Assembly (NCBI GenBank): GCA_944325705.1
Contig: CALVBB010000012.1
Coordinates: 1 to 60,024, forward strand
Reading direction: 5' to 3'
Length of the DNA stretch: 60,024 nucleotides
Source of the DNA: Candidatus Gastranaerophilales bacterium
Lineage (GTDB): Bacteria; Cyanobacteriota; Vampirovibrionia; Gastranaerophilales; Gastranaerophilaceae
The translations under genes and the position numbers were made by a program. The notes under the pieces were generated by a model. It searched no databases and was not told the origin of the DNA. It saw nothing but the letters and a program-made list of their open reading frames with translations. Below, in pieces: positions 914-49,437 of this stretch. Position 1 is the first letter of the stretch, and the number at the start of each line of letters is the position of its first letter.

Positions 914-1810
914 ATGCAAAACACAGTTATAGCTTCAAAACTCAGAAGGGGGGGGGGGTAAATTTACTTCCGCTCAGGACAAGGGGTTCTGGCACACTTT
1001 TTTAGAAAATATTAAGCGCGGAGATTTTTTTAAATCTTTTTCCATTGCGGGCGCTATACACTCTCCCGAATTTGTAAATTCGCTATCACTCACTCGGCGC
1101 CCTTCCGAAAATCCGCTTTCACTCTGGCTGAGGTCTTAATTACCCTCGGAATTATCGGTGTGGTCGCTGCTATGACACTGCCGACATTGGTTCAAAACCA
1201 TCGAAACACGGAATTACAAACCGGATTAAAAAAGGCATATTCCGTATTAAGTCAGGCGCTTGACCTGTATTATGCTAAAAACGGAGAACGGATTAAAGCT
1301 GATAGCACAACAGCTTCACAAAGTCTATATAAAACGCTTATGCCTTATTTTACAAATGCTAAAGCATGCGGTACAGGCTCTGGAAGCAGTGAGAATGCCG
1401 CAAAAGCATGTGTACCTAATAACAGCTATGTAGACGAAGACAGACGTAATGCAGATATTTATAAAACGTATAACGGGCAAAAAGCATACATGACTTATAT
1501 GGATGACGGTCAATTCCTGGTAAATGACGGAATACTTATTCTCATAGAGAATACCGTCAACAGCAGCAGCTTATATCTCTCTGTTGATGTTAATGGATAT
1601 AATAATAGACCGAACAGATTCGGTCAAGATGTGTTTGTCTTTCAAATAGATAAAAATGGAGCGTTACGACCAATGGGAGCACCATCCACTGACTATTATT
1701 CAGAAAATGATGATTTTTGCTCCAAAACATCAACAAATATATACAACGGTTTTGGCTGCACATACAAAGCTTTAACAAACAAAGATTTTTTCAAAAATCT
1801 ACCGAAGTAA
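914..1810 (+). pseudogene. long-leader type IV pilin-like gene, locus A (G-tract, second frameshift)
   Basis: This encodes a type IV pilin-like protein with the N-terminal helix motif FTLAEVLITLGIIG, which would be cut by prepilin peptidase. The ATG at 914 follows AAAGGAG. After MQNTVIASKLRR comes a run of 11 G and then an immediate TAA (959). With 10 G the frame would continue as GGGKFTSAQDKGFWH... to a TAA at 1137. The pilin helix itself lies one base out of that frame: relative to locus B one base is missing around 1108-1118 (CGGCGCCC here, CGGCGGCCC there). No G number can therefore restore it alone. No ATG, GTG or TTG lies in the pilin frame before 1160, inside the helix. The C-terminal domain (to 1810) is intact and ends at a terminator. 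Probably a recently broken family member, unless the second shift is a sequencing error. Confidence 0.75.
948..958 (+). repeat. poly-G tract (11 G) in pilin locus A
   Basis: Eleven consecutive G lie 34 bases after the start codon. Ten G would join the start codon to the leader frame; eleven gives GGG-TAA. Confidence 0.9.
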
Positions 1811-10108: not shown

Positions 10109-10136
10109 TTGCAATTTCTAAAAAATCATTTATAAT
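10109..10136 (+). promoter_or_regulatory. promoter of pilin locus B
   Basis: TTGCAA (10109-10114), a 16-nt spacer and TATAAT (10131-10136) sit upstream of the same AAAGGAGATATTT-ATG stretch as in locus A. The motif ATATTGCA is repeated at the -35 region. Confidence 0.55.
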
Positions 10137-10166
10137 AATTAATATAATAAAAGAAAGGAGATATTT

Positions 10167-11079
10167 ATGCAAAACACAACTATAGCTTCAAAACTCTCAG
10201 GGGGGGGGGGGTAGATTTACTTCCGCTCAGGACAAGAATTTCCGGCGGACAATTCGAGAATATATTAAGCGCGTTGATTTTTTCAAATCTTTTTCCATTG
10301 CGGGCGCTATACCCTCTCCCGAATTTGTAAATTCGCTATCGCTCACACGGCGGCCCTCCCGAAAATCCGGTTTCACCCTCGCGGAAGTCTTAATTACCCT
10401 CGGGATTATCGGCGTTGTTGCCGCGATGACCATTCCCGGTCTTGTCGGAAAGTACAAGGATAAAGTCATGATTACACAGACTAAAAAAACTTATGCAACT
10501 ATACTTAGTGCTCTGGACAAGCTTAAGTACGAAATGGGCGCTTCCGACTACACAGGAGTATTTCTGCAGGATAAAACCGAAAAAGAAAACGCAAATCTGT
10601 TTTTATCAAAATTCAAAACTCTACAAATATGTGACAGAGGGAAAAAAGGATGTACCGTATCAACTTTCAAATACCCTTCCGTAAAAAATGACGGCAAAGG
10701 GAAAAATGGTTCATATAACGCTACATCTTTTTACAGAGGAATACTCTCGGACGGCTCAGTTGTCGGGATAAATCCTTACGTCGGGGGAGATTCAGAATGC
10801 GGCAGAATTTTTAATAACAAAAAAACAGATGCTGACGGAAACTGGATTTCCGACGGAAAAGGCGGCTACGAAACAGTAGCATCTTACTCAAAACAATGCG
10901 GAGTATTAATGATTGACGCAAACGGAATAAAAGCGCCTAACCAGCTGGGAGCCGATGTGTTTTTCTTCATAATCGGCCCTAAAAAAATCAGCAATTATAT
11001 AACAAAAATTGATACCGTTTTAACTGATGAATCCCTGCAGTACACAGATTATCAGGTAGGAGGCGACTTTGGTCAATAA
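10167..11079 (+). CDS. long-leader type IV pilin-like protein, locus B (G-tract phase variation, OFF as read)
   Basis: The ATG at 10167 follows AAAGGAG. As read, MQNTTIASKLS runs into 12 G and a TAG at 10212. With 11 G (or 14) one uninterrupted frame runs to 11079: an unusual 68-residue basic leader containing DFFKSFSIAGAIPSPEFVNS, a G|F prepilin peptidase site (RKSG|FTLAEV), the hydrophobic helix, and a globular part with cysteines and VLMIDANGIKAPNQLGAD, a segment shared with other pilins here. Between the TAG and the helix this frame has no ATG, GTG or TTG, so the G-tract is the only visible route to expression. A start at the ATG at 10426 would delete the leader and half of the helix. Ordinary pilins have leaders of about 6-25 residues. 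Function in adhesion or secretion is inference. Confidence 0.8.
10200..10211 (+). repeat. poly-G tract (12 G) in pilin locus B
   Basis: Twelve consecutive G, 33 bases after the start codon. Eleven or fourteen would be in frame with the pilin; twelve creates a stop directly after the tract. Confidence 0.92.
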
Positions 11080-14029: not shown

Positions 14030-15376
14030 ATGAATGAAATTGACACCTCCAACATCACTGAACTCAGAAATAAAGTTAAAGCAAAACTGGACGCCACCCA
14101 GTTGTTTAAGTTTAAAGGAACTGTTTCCAAACTACTCGGGCTTACTGTTGAAGTTAAACTTCCCGGCTTAAAAATCGGTGATTTATGCTACATTGAAACC
14201 GCAGACGGCAGGAAAAAACCCGCCGAAGTTCAGGCTTTTAAAGGAGATGTTGCCCAGTTGCTTCTGCTCTACGACGGTGAAGGCATAGGGCAGGGAAGTC
14301 TTGTGACAAGTACAGGTCAACCGATTATTATTCCTGTCGGGGATTTCCTTCTCGGCAGACTGATTAACCCAATGGGCGAACCCATTGACGGGAAACCTCT
14401 TGATACAACAGGTGCCTCATGGCGCTCCATTGAAGGCCCTCCTCCGGGTCCGTTTGAAAGACCTATTATCACAGAAATGTTTTCAACGGGAGTTCGCGCA
14501 ATTGACAGCTGCATGACTATGGGCTGCGGCCAGCGTCTTGGACTTTTTGCAGGCTCCGGCGTCGGTAAAAGTACCCTTCTCGGTATGATTGCACGAAACT
14601 CTGATGCCGATGTTAACGTTGTTGCTCTAATCGGAGAACGCGGTCGCGAAGTTAAAGAATTTGTTGAGGACGCACTCGGAGAAAAAGGTATGGCAAAATC
14701 CGTACTTGTCTGCTCTACCGGCGACCAGCCTCCGTTGATTCGTCAAAAAGCACTGCTTGCCGCAACTGCTGTATGTGAATACTTTAGAGATCAGGGCAAA
14801 AAAGTTTTCCTTATGACAGATACAGTAACCCGCTGCGCCATGGCAGGACGTGAAGTAGGCCTCTCACTCGGTGAACCGCCTACAATGAAAGGGTATCCGC
14901 CATCAATTTTTTCTTGGCTTCAAAAAGTTCTGGAAAGAGCTGGAAACAGTCCTAAAGGCTCTATCACCGCTCTTTATACGGTTTTAATGGAAGGCGACGA
15001 CATCTCGGATCCTATTGTTGATATTGTGCGCGGTATTGTTGACGGTCACATTTTCTTATCAAGAAAAGTTGCCGAGATGAACCATTATCCAGCGATTGAC
15101 GTACTTGGAAGTATTTCAAGGCTTATGTCCGCAATTGCAACACCGGAACATAAAGCTGCTGCCGGCAAGATGCGCCAGCTTCTTGCTTTATACAGAGAAA
15201 ACAAAGACTTAATTGATGTCGGAATGTACCAGCCGGGTTCCAACCCGAAACTTGACATTGCAATTGAGATGAACCCTAAAATTAACGCGTTTTTACAACA
15301 GAGGACTTCCGATATTGTAAGCATGGACACTACAATCAGCACCCTTATTGATATGATGAAAGACGTCGATATTTAG
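14030..15376 (+). CDS. FliI/SctN-family export ATPase
   Basis: Hexameric ATPase of the flagellar/type III secretion family (F1-beta-like), 448 residues. It has an N-terminal beta barrel (about 25-100), the INPMGEPIDG segment, the Walker A motif AGSGVGKST (174-182), ALIGERGREVKEFV, and SALYTVLMEGDDISDPI-like sequence (here ITALYTVLMEGDD). These distinguish it from F1 subunits and Rho. It would energise unfolding and export of substrates at an export gate. No other flagellar or injectisome gene is in the window, so whether it is FliI or a different export ATPase is undecided. Its 3' end overlaps the convergent TPR gene by 4 bp. Confidence 0.9.
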   Translation: MNEIDTSNITELRNKVKAKLDATQLFKFKGTVSKLLGLTVEVKLPGLKIGDLCYIETADGRKKPAEVQAFKGDVAQLLLLYDGEGIGQGSLVTSTGQPIIIPVGDFLLGRLINPMGEPIDGKPLDTTGASWRSIEGPPPGPFERPIITEMFSTGVRAIDSCMTMGCGQRLGLFAGSGVGKSTLLGMIARNSDADVNVVALIGERGREVKEFVEDALGEKGMAKSVLVCSTGDQPPLIRQKALLAATAVCEYFRDQGKKVFLMTDTVTRCAMAGREVGLSLGEPPTMKGYPPSIFSWLQKVLERAGNSPKGSITALYTVLMEGDDISDPIVDIVRGIVDGHIFLSRKVAEMNHYPAIDVLGSISRLMSAIATPEHKAAAGKMRQLLALYRENKDLIDVGMYQPGSNPKLDIAIEMNPKINAFLQQRTSDIVSMDTTISTLIDMMKDVDI

Positions 15377-19602: not shown

Positions 19603-19773
19603 AGTAATGACGGTCGGATTAGTAAATCCGACCGTCATTACTTTTGCTCCCTTTGTAAGGGAGGTGGCGCGAATGCGCCGGAGGGTTTACCCTCACCCGA
19701 ATTTGTAAATTCGTCCTGCCTATAACTCACTGCCCCCTCTCCCGCCTACGGCACCCTCCACAGCAGGGGGAGG
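19603..19773. repeat. composite palindromic repeat element
   Basis: No gene lies between 19396 and 19813. This stretch is a chain of adjacent palindromes: an 18-bp perfect stem (19603-19620 with 19625-19642), then CTCCCTTTGTAAGGGAG, GGCGCGAATGCGCC, GAGGGTTTACCCTC and CGAATTTGTAAATTCG (19698-19713), and a last arm pair GCCCCCT/AGGGGG around 19732-19771. A partial second copy lies at 37330-37376. The 16-mer at 19698 also occurs inside all three G-tract pilin leaders. Confidence 0.8.
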
Positions 19774-46900: not shown

Positions 46901-46928
46901 CACAAATAAACAAGAAAGGAGAAAATAA

Positions 46929-47922
46929 ATGGGAAACACAATTATAGCTTCAAATCTGAAAAAGGGGGGGGGGCTTTGCTAGCCCAAAATTGGCTCAGAA
47001 CAAAGATTTCTGGCACTCACTTCTAAATAAATTAAGGCGCGGGGATTTTTTCAAATCTTTTTCCATTACGGACGCAAAACCATCTACCGAATTTGTAAAT
47101 TCGCATCCGCTCATTAACAAATTCTTCCATCTGCACAAGACATACAGAGTTACACACTTCGCAGAGTTCAACGGTTCCATTTGTATCCCGCAGGGAAGGG
47201 CATTAGTTGAACGATTCACTCCTCACCCTTCACTCTTCACTGCTAAAAAAGCCGCTTTCACCCTCGCCGAAGTCCTCATTACCATTGGTATTATCGGCGT
47301 TGTAGCTGCCATGACCTTACCGGCGCTTATTCAAAACAAACAGAACAAGGAATTACAAACAGCTCTCCTGAAAAATTACAGTATAATTCAGCAGGTTCTA
47401 GAAAAAATGGCACTTGACAGGGGAGCACGCCCGAAAACCTCTGATTTTGGTTATCTTGAATTTGCACCGGAATTTATGAAGTATTTTAACCACACTGTAA
47501 AATGTTCAGAAAGTCAAGAAGGCTGTGCAAGCAAAACAGAAAATGAAAATGACAGTACAGATAAAACTCTAATAAAAGAATATCTTACTTATAACAAATC
47601 ACGCAATGTCAGCACAACATATTTTGATGACGGGAAATTCCGGACAGTTACAGAATATTATTTGTTTGAAAACCAAAACTCCGACTTGCTTATAATAACT
47701 GTTGACGTTAATGGTATAAAAAAGAAACCAAATATCTGGGGACATGACCTTTTCAGTTTTCAACTTCTGGAAAACGGAAAACTTGTGCCGGCAGGAACAC
47801 CTGATACGAAATTTCATGATAAAAATACATATTGCTCAGCGAATTCATCAAACAAACTAAATGGCATAGGATGCACCTATTACGCAATTACAGATAGAAA
47901 TTACTGGAAAAATCTGCCATAA
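46929..47922 (+). CDS. long-leader type IV pilin-like protein, locus C (G-tract phase variation, OFF as read)
   Basis: The ATG at 46929 follows AAAGGAG. As read, MGNTIIASNLKKGGG continues LC and stops at TAG (46977). Removing one G (9 instead of 10) gives one frame to 47922: GGGFASPKLAQNKDFWHSLLNKLRRGDFFKSFSI in sense, then a long leader of about 100 residues, the helix AAFTLAEVLITIGIIG and the pilin globular domain (TVDVNGIKKKPNIWGHDLFSFQL, Cys-rich end). A TTG at 46990 is in the pilin frame and could serve as a weak internal start, but it has no ribosome binding site. Homologous in its first 50 codons to loci A and B. The leader also includes an extra block not found in A or B (47105-47260). 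Confidence 0.78.
46964..46973 (+). repeat. poly-G tract (10 G) in pilin locus C
   Basis: Ten consecutive G, 35 bases after the start codon. Nine would be in frame with the pilin. Confidence 0.92.
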
Positions 47923-47924
47923 GT

Positions 47925-49091
47925 TTAGTTATTATAAACCTCAGCATACTGCGGGTTAACGGCAAGCCATTTAAAGGCGGCTTCTTCGGTTTCCGGAATA
48001 TCAATAACGAATGTTCCGCCGTATCTTCCTCTGGAAAACGCCAGGTAACCTTCTTTTGCAAGATTTTGAAAAGCTTTCCTTATTGTATTGGGGCTCAAAT
48101 CCATTTCCTTTGACAATTCCATTATTGAAGGAAGTTTTGCGCCTATTTCATAATTCTCGCTAATCATCCGCTTTATGTAGTTCTGAGTTTTTTCATAATA
48201 ATAAAAAGCAGTCTGCTGTGCCGGTGCAAAAATTGAGGTTTCTTTTTTAATACCTGAAGCAGCCTCATCAGGCAGTTTTATTACAATAGTTCCATATCTG
48301 CCGCGTCGCGGAAGCAGAATGCCTTCATCAACCAGCACTTTTAACGCATCATGGATTGTCTTTATGCTGACTTTTAAAAGCTGAGAAAGTTTTGCATGCG
48401 CTGGAATCTTATCACCTGTCTTAAGATTGGCTGTTATATATTTTTTTAAATCATCCTCAACTTTACTAACAAGTGTTTCCTGCTCCGGAACATCTCCTGT
48501 ATTGAATGCAAAATTTGTATTTTTTAGCAGCCAGCCGGCATCTCTTGAGTTCTTAAATCTGTGCTCGATTATTCCTTCAGTACAGAGATACTCCAGCGCA
48601 AGCCGTGTCGTGTTGGCCGAACACCCGATAATTTCCGCAATCTTTCTTGATGAAGGCAGATATTTTCCGGCTGAAAAATTTTGTTCGAGAATATATTTCT
48701 TTATTGCAGAAACAGCAATTTCGCGTTTTGAAGTCAATTTACGCATATTTGAAGTTCCGGAAGCTTTCCCGCTTTTGATAATAGTTCCAATGCACTGCTT
48801 TGATTCCACATATCCTAAATCTTCAATATATCTCAGTGCGTTTTGAATTGTACCTATACTCACCCCTAAAAAGTACGCCATATCAGATTTTGAAGGCAAA
48901 AGTACTCCTGTTAACGGCACACCGCTGCTTATTTCAGCTTCAATCCACTTAATCATCCATTTTGCAATAGCTATGGCTTTTGATTCAGATATATTTTTTA
49001 AATCCGGAGCTTCCGCATTTATTTCGGAAATCTTCAACTTCCTCATTGTAGATTTCTGCGGCAAAATATAATTATCTTCCTTCATATACAC
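47925..49091 (-). CDS. tandem GntR-type winged-helix regulator (four domains)
   Basis: A 388-residue protein made of four consecutive GntR-like winged helix-turn-helix units at about 38-107, 122-190, 204-273 and 298-365. Each has the same signature: G-x-x-(L/I)-P-(S/A), then a recognition helix of the type (V/C)S-x-x-T-x-x-x-A-(L/F), then an EG or LG wing (LGVSIGTIQNAL, IGCSANTTRLAL, LKVSIKTIHDAL, MDLSPNTIRKAF). No effector-binding domain (FCD, UTRA or aminotransferase) follows, which is unusual. It converges on pilin locus C, 3 bp apart. Target unknown; multi-site or looping DNA binding is inferred. Confidence 0.85.
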   Translation of the reverse strand: MYMKEDNYILPQKSTMRKLKISEINAEAPDLKNISESKAIAIAKWMIKWIEAEISSGVPLTGVLLPSKSDMAYFLGVSIGTIQNALRYIEDLGYVESKQCIGTIIKSGKASGTSNMRKLTSKREIAVSAIKKYILEQNFSAGKYLPSSRKIAEIIGCSANTTRLALEYLCTEGIIEHRFKNSRDAGWLLKNTNFAFNTGDVPEQETLVSKVEDDLKKYITANLKTGDKIPAHAKLSQLLKVSIKTIHDALKVLVDEGILLPRRGRYGTIVIKLPDEAASGIKKETSIFAPAQQTAFYYYEKTQNYIKRMISENYEIGAKLPSIMELSKEMDLSPNTIRKAFQNLAKEGYLAFSRGRYGGTFVIDIPETEEAAFKWLAVNPQYAEVYNN

Positions 49092-49185
49092 ACAAATCCT
49101 TTTTGATTTACTAATAATACACTATTTATAAAAAAACATCAATACGTTTTTTGTTATTATATTAAGAAGAATTTACAAAAACAGC

Positions 49186-49215
49186 AAAGGTGCAAGACCG
49201 AAATCTCACACCTTT
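49186..49215. terminator. hairpin between GntR-array and RHH genes
   Basis: AAAGGTG/CACCTTT with a 16-nt loop lies between the two minus-strand genes. Termination is possible but the tail is weak. Confidence 0.4.
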
Positions 49216-49248
49216 TCAACCCAAATCCGTGCCGTCCGCTAAGAGAAT

Positions 49249-49437
49249 TTATTCTAACAACTCTTCAAGGATGCTGGCATTTTTACTTGCTGTAGTAGAT
49301 TCACGAACTCTCTGTTTGTAAATGTAAGTACGCAGCGCCTCCCTGATTAATTCACTGCGTGAACGATTTTCTACATCAGCTACCTGATCAATCTTGTTCA
49401 AAAATTCTTCGGGCATTGAAATAAGTACTCGCGCCAT
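49249..49437 (-). CDS. ribbon-helix-helix (CopG-type) regulator
   Basis: A 62-residue protein: ARVLISMPEEFLNKIDQVADVENRSRSELIREALRTYI is the RHH fold with an N-terminal beta strand and two helices, as in CopG, Arc and antitoxins. AAGGAGAATAT precedes the ATG. No toxin gene is adjacent. It may regulate itself or a neighbour such as pyrH; not shown. Confidence 0.85.
   Translation of the reverse strand: MARVLISMPEEFLNKIDQVADVENRSRSELIREALRTYIYKQRVRESTTASKNASILEELLE

Follow-up and report, generated by a model that had tools for sequence, protein, structure and literature searches.

In a member of Candidatus Gastranaerophilales, an uncultured gut bacterium related to cyanobacteria, dozens of type IV pilin genes stand behind poly-G tracts whose out-of-frame state is non-random: the consensus of the pilin superfamily is OFF, with the tract one G too long. 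The case in question, locus B, lies in a stretch of 60,024 nucleotides (the window) on contig 12 of a 1.95-Mb genome (G000). Slipped-strand phase variation during replication, with the poly-G tract as a translational ON/OFF switch on the superfamily, is in our judgment the probable explanation; switching and expression are inferred, as no reads, RNA or protein data were at hand. A first-pass annotation had proposed that the locus B pilin is phase-variable and OFF in the consensus. This remains the best-supported reading and holds far beyond one locus: the data support extending the single-gene observation to a system that spans the genome and the family and whose OFF state is not random.

The poly-G tract and reading frames of locus B

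All features of locus B are on the forward strand. A promoter-like site (TTGCAA-16-TATAAT, 10109–10136), which is only a match to a sigma-70-like consensus and unproven in function, is followed by the Shine-Dalgarno sequence AAGGAG (10155–10160), located within repeat family D5. As assembled, the ATG at 10167 opens a mini-ORF (10167–10214, MQNTTIASKLSGGGG and stop) with eleven codons (MQNTTIASKLS), twelve G (10200–10211) and a TAG at 10212, exactly as the first-pass annotation had described it. The pilin frame comprises a long prepilin leader (RFTSAQDKNF...RRPSRKSG, 10213–10371), open and without a start codon, and the mature type IV pilin (FTLAEVLITLGIIGVVAAMT..., 10372–11079).

Among the tract lengths from 8 to 15 G that we tried, only 8, 11 and 14 joined the start of locus B to the pilin. 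The computed ORF has 15 codons with 12 G and 54 with 13 G. With 11 and 14 G it has 303 and 304 codons, respectively, which bears out the earlier claim that no stop interrupts the pilin frame between the tract and 11079 and that these two lengths join it to the start. The further claim that this frame lacks an ATG, GTG or TTG ahead of the helix was also correct: a scan of locus B found none of them between tract and helix, and the first ATG is at 10426, within the helix and 3' of the cleavage site. An internal start codon for the locus B pilin was rejected on these grounds.

The window contains three tracts of at least 9 G (nine overlapping 9-mers), compared with 0.05 runs expected by chance. 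Locus B meets two criteria of a contingency locus, namely a long mononucleotide tract at the 5' end of an ORF, far above chance, and a frame that is joined or broken by a change in tract length (303 versus 15 or 54 codons). The RNA structure predicted around the tract is ordinary. A flagellar/type III-type secretion ATPase (T3SS_ATPase_C) is encoded near locus B at 14030–15376.

The product of locus B

The locus B product matches PF07963 (N_methyl) with 28.8 bits (cut-off 21.2) and an E-value of 8.3e-7, and it fulfills the criterion of a G/A-F-T-L-x-E cleavage and N-methylation motif. The structure model (m92eaaade3b7a, pLDDT 87) has a 52-residue N-terminal helix and a C-terminal β-domain, by which the structural criterion for a type IV pilin is met as well. 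A Foldseek search of the PDB with this model gave no significant match. In a second look at the Foldseek list with VIA the best match was PilA5 of T. thermophilus with a Z-score of 6.1 and an r.m.s.d. of 3.3 (103 aligned); the comparison with FimA resulted in a Z-score of 4.7. The helix region also shows sequence matches to solved pilins, including geopilin (E = 4e-5).

A prepilin peptidase is encoded in the same genome (PF01478 at G000:C23:17801–18190, 28.8 bits, cut-off 26.5). If the cut occurs between G and F, as inferred from the PF07963 motif, the leader (10213–10371) would be removed by such a peptidase. Because the tract is located upstream of the cleavage site, established prepilin processing lets us infer that the mature pilin is the same at every in-frame tract length.

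Related loci in the window

Locus B shares a 214-nt leader repeat (D1, 10151–10364, forward strand) with two other loci of the window (copies at 898–1111 and 46919–47132), and all three tracts occupy the same site in it. Locus A (914–1810, forward strand) has 11 G at 948–958, a TAA at 959 and a pilin from 1115 onwards. No tract length links its start to the pilin. Since pilin-frame stops between tract and pilin block every length, we regard locus A as a decayed copy, dead among live ones. Locus C (46929–47922, forward strand) has 10 G at 46964–46973 and a pilin from 47254; it is in frame with 9 or 12 G (330–331 codons), and its assembled tract is off by one G.

Leader modules such as CCCTCTCCCGAATTTGTAAATTCG (10301–10335, 1048–1082, 47069–47103 and 19679–19713) are not confined to pilin leaders. 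Long leaders, which reach ~600 nt, resemble mosaics of dispersed palindromic repeats that are open in frame.

Distribution in the genome and in relatives

The 1.95-Mb genome contains 74 tracts of at least 8 G, most of them 24–44 bases 3' of a Shine-Dalgarno sequence and ATG, and about 126 N_methyl matches. Most members of the genus have ~70–150 such matches each. The architecture, searched as GGAG-(4-14)-ATG-(22-42)-G9, was present in 12 of 13 genus genomes and in 19 of 39 relatives; all 15 genomes belonging to other families of the order lacked it. Records with the same leader carry the name Candidatus Gastranaerophilales (an order of Melainabacteria), and a search of viral contigs for the leader pattern gave no match. 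Among the papers searched for a link between Gastranaerophilales or Melainabacteria and pilins, phase variation or homopolymers, none reported this system.

An unselected 446 kb of the genome contained 23 strict pilin motifs, ~8 of which were joined to a poly-G leader while about half had an ordinary Shine-Dalgarno sequence and ATG nearby. Two genomes of the same genus (G005 and G008) have only 8 and 4 N_methyl matches and few or no poly-G leaders. As both are poor in both features, pilin expansion and poly-G switch appear to rise and fall together.

Among the loci scanned, the G run was interrupted in only two copies; all other tracts were pure G. The two copies, L370 (C1 ~48,800–49,264; GGGGGGAGGGGG) and L085 (C22 ~23,302; GGGAGG), are locked out of frame. 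Two genomes of the genus (G003 and G012; L188, L298 and ~45 loci) show a different arrangement, in which a poly-G mini-ORF of ~34 codons (MQK..I.RISGGGGY...) is followed by a terminator-like hairpin and then by a pilin with its own Shine-Dalgarno sequence and ATG (MKKKNAFTLAEV).

Phase of the tracts

For each tract we measured the phase as the frame between ATG and pilin. The analysis was carried out on 139 loci in which no stop interrupts the pilin frame back to the tract and the pilin lacks its own start; loci with their own start were kept separate. One G too many was found in 100 of the 139 start-less loci, one too few in 23, and only 16 were in frame. The tract length follows the frame requirement. 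Where the pilin is ON at 10 or 13 G, the most frequent length is 11 (59 loci); where it is ON at 11 or 14 G, it is 12 (23 loci); and where it is ON at 9 or 12 G, lengths 10 and 13 together (15 loci) exceed length 11 (7 loci). As a control we used 52 pilins that have their own Shine-Dalgarno sequence and ATG behind the same kind of leader. In this set 11 G was the mode in every frame class, so the length shifts only where the start is coupled to the pilin.

When tract lengths were shuffled among loci, a mean of 54.7 loci fell at +1, with a maximum of 76 in 5000 shuffles, compared with the observed 100; shuffling within genomes gave a mean of 67.8 and a maximum of 86. For the window's genome alone the count is 21 of 29, a value reached in 0 of 20,000 shuffles. 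The loci are paralogs and the phase counts are therefore not fully independent. After near-identical leaders had been thinned to one locus per leader type, 99 of 137 loci were at +1 (0 of 10,000 shuffles). Genomes G013 and G021 show little +1 bias.

The phase is also kept by compensating changes around the tract. In MQNT-type leaders the upstream and tract lengths combine as 33+12, 34+11 and 35+10; in MENT-type leaders we observed 30+11+CAAGTAG, 30+10+CAAAGTAG and 29+12+CAAGTAG. Within five codons past the tract a stop occurs in the ATG frame of 94 out of 100 +1 loci, compared with 51 out of 100 for the third frame. In the leaders, the pilin frame runs through 7180 codons without a stop, whereas the other two frames have 967 stops among 14,200 codons. 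These loci were picked for being open, yet only five start-less pilin loci were broken.

Length variation between relatives and glycan genes

The ortholog of locus B in the nearest relative, G004 (L149), has 97% pilin identity and, with 12 G, is likewise at +1. The DNA upstream of the two loci is ~95% identical, yet their leaders clearly differ between tract and pilin, a sequence difference that hints at a possible exchange of leaders between loci. Other orthologs with highly similar flanks differ in tract length. One pilin has 11 G in G000 (OFF, one short of the 12 needed for ON) and 12 G in G004 (ON), and a GT17 gene has 11 G in G000 (ON) and 12 G in G004 (OFF). With 11 versus 12 G in the ortholog pairs L027/L243, L050/L260 and L012/L147, a further criterion of contingency loci, a length that differs between relatives, is met. 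Two contigs of the window's genome, C5 and C1, share an exact overlap of 77 nt that ends in 11 G, to which C1 adds a twelfth. This break of the assembly graph inside a tract is only suggestive of mixed lengths and does not prove them.

The start and poly-G leader are also located 5' of genes for GT17, RgpF, DUF4422, GT-D-like and FkbM methyltransferase proteins (L050, L260, L126, L268, L227, L282 and L093). In this small, hand-sorted set of non-pilin (glycan) genes 6 of 12 are in frame, compared with 16 of 139 pilins (Fisher p = 0.0025). According to the first-pass annotation, a tract that is fixed in length both in deep reads and in related strains, and always out of frame, would refute phase variation. 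As far as relatives are concerned, neither holds for the family, as ortholog lengths differ and pilins as well as glycan genes occur in frame; for locus B itself, however, the tract has 12 G in both genomes.

Proposed mechanism

Based on the reading frames and the phase analysis we propose the following mechanism. Translation would begin at the ATG of locus B and, with 12 G in the tract, run immediately into the TAG to yield a peptide of 15 residues. A tract shorter by one G, or longer by two, would join the start to the long prepilin leader and the type IV pilin. The tract would sit in the part removed by prepilin peptidase, so the mature pilin should be identical whichever in-frame length is present. 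The cassette of Shine-Dalgarno sequence, ATG, ~10 codons, 10–12 G and stop would act in the same way where it lies 5' of other genes, here and in related genomes, namely dozens of pilin genes and some surface-glycan genes. Most pilins would thereby be held with exactly one G in excess: OFF in the consensus, but only a single-base omission away from ON.

The closest parallel is found in the sortase pili of B. breve UCC2003 (bbr_0113 and bbr_1889), where a mini-ORF with G10–G12 is OFF in the annotation and in the consensus, and ON corresponds to -1+3n (PMC9187656). In that species replication slippage has been quantified by Maximum Depth Sequencing, ON variants were enriched in mice, and omission of a single base was the main productive event (PMC9187656). 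B. breve is likewise a gut commensal, and the shared features include a short upstream ORF with Shine-Dalgarno sequence and ATG, a tract of 10–12 G, an OFF consensus with one G too many, a stop soon after the tract and a main pilin ORF without its own start. Since the geometry is the same, we favor replication slippage as the best explanation. The systems differ in that B. breve has LPXTG pili at two loci with a Sec signal, whereas here type IV prepilins at dozens of loci share a leader cassette with the tract inside the prepilin leader.

Random slippage alone predicts that about one third of the loci are in frame and that neither OFF phase is preferred. The data differ from this, so selection or poising must be added. 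As one-G omission is the preponderant productive event in B. breve, we infer that a tract with one G in excess is the OFF state closest to ON. The bias would then probably arise because slips of -1 outnumber other events at such lengths, making +1 a poised state. The reason for the +1 bias, the switching rates in the cell and pilin expression are inferences. MutL is intact in the genome; very high rates as in Campylobacter cannot therefore be assumed, and rates may be lower.

Alternative explanations

The main rival is a programmed slippage without any change in the DNA, in which RNA polymerase drops a G or the ribosome shifts by +1 and every cell makes a fixed fraction of pilin. We think this unlikely, although it is not excluded in the absence of reads, RNA or protein. 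In prfB of E. coli a +1 frameshift takes place at a G-rich, Shine-Dalgarno-like run beside the stop, and the product is encoded in the +1 frame. The G run here also resembles an internal Shine-Dalgarno sequence beside a stop, but prfB is a single autoregulated gene without a long homopolymer. A +1 target frame kept in 100 of 139 loci with compensating indels, the ATG-frame stop just past the tract in 94 of 100 of them and the purity of the homopolymers are what a programmed signal would lead one to expect. The direction of the out-of-frame fusion is not the same in all members, with 100 of 139 in the +1 frame, 23 in the other and 16 in frame. A programmed slippage accounts poorly for the loci that are in frame (16 pilins and 6 of 12 glycan genes), for uncompensated length differences between orthologs and for the varying distance from tract to stop; the ordinary RNA structure predicted near the tract lends it no support either. 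Moreover, known bacterial transcriptional slippage is on A/T runs (PMC1088944), and the same geometry in B. breve was shown to reflect replication slippage (PMC9187656). There is a similarly small chance that the +1 setting is itself a programmed signal, with dozens of pilins made at a low, fixed share in every cell by transcriptional or ribosomal slippage on the G run, and replication slippage adding a second layer.

We consider it improbable that the out-of-frame pilins are silent or decaying paralogs, i.e. pseudogenes or an archive used only by recombination as in the transfer from pilS to pilE. There are many paralogs, locus A is truly broken, and leaders differ between locus B and its ortholog in spite of flanks that are ~95% alike. 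G runs can in addition form G4, which initiates pilin variation in gonococci. The pilin frames and leaders are open, however, and each start-less pilin locus has its own Shine-Dalgarno sequence, ATG and tract, unlike pilS cassettes, so that the pilE/pilS criterion is not met. Conservation of the phase by compensation argues for selection on each locus.

Very little speaks for a mini-ORF that acts as a regulatory leader peptide or attenuator, with an irrelevant pilin frame. The arrangement in G003 and G012, with a hairpin between the poly-G mini-ORF and a pilin that has its own Shine-Dalgarno sequence and ATG, would suit such a role, but the pilins of the 139 start-less loci have no alternative start, and constraint on the phase is confined to loci whose pilin relies on the start of the mini-ORF, with no common preference at the others. 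Poly-G lengths in assemblies are generally unreliable (PMC9187656, PMC4235727), and an annotated G11 in B. breve was in fact mostly G12 (PMC9187656), but that tracts were over-called by one and the pilins are really ON is hardly credible, given that the +1 phase recurs with 10, 11 and 12 G alike, in several genomes whose contig names (SPAdes- and MEGAHIT-style) point to different assemblers, and that 16 pilins and 6 glycan genes are called in frame, neither of which fits a uniform +1 error.

Comparison with known systems

In the opa paralog family and the poly-G gene pilC of Neisseria, the repeat lies in an exported leader and switching leaves the mature protein unchanged, as we propose for the pilins here. 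We know of no +1 bias in either. PilC, unlike the products described here, is an adhesin, and opa differs in having CTCTT repeats and up to ~12 loci (PMC4235727). Campylobacter jejuni resembles our case with G8–G11 tracts in the frames of surface-structure genes at ~29 loci per genome (PMC4965091); these are mostly glycan genes in an organism without mismatch repair, whereas our genome has MutL and its switches sit mainly on pilins. Akkermansia muciniphila is another gut commensal with a surface (EPS) gene, Amuc_1413 (G9), that varies in phase through a poly-G tract, but this is a single locus that is ON in the type strain, in contrast to the many loci here (PMC13055324).

If phase variation by replication slippage is confirmed for these loci, few known organisms would make richer use of phase variation for one structure than these uncultured gut bacteria, and separate poly-G switches on dozens of members of the pilin superfamily would explain why their pilins look broken in annotation. 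The conserved state of one G too long would then amount to a specific, testable claim, namely that the direction of slippage poises the switches.
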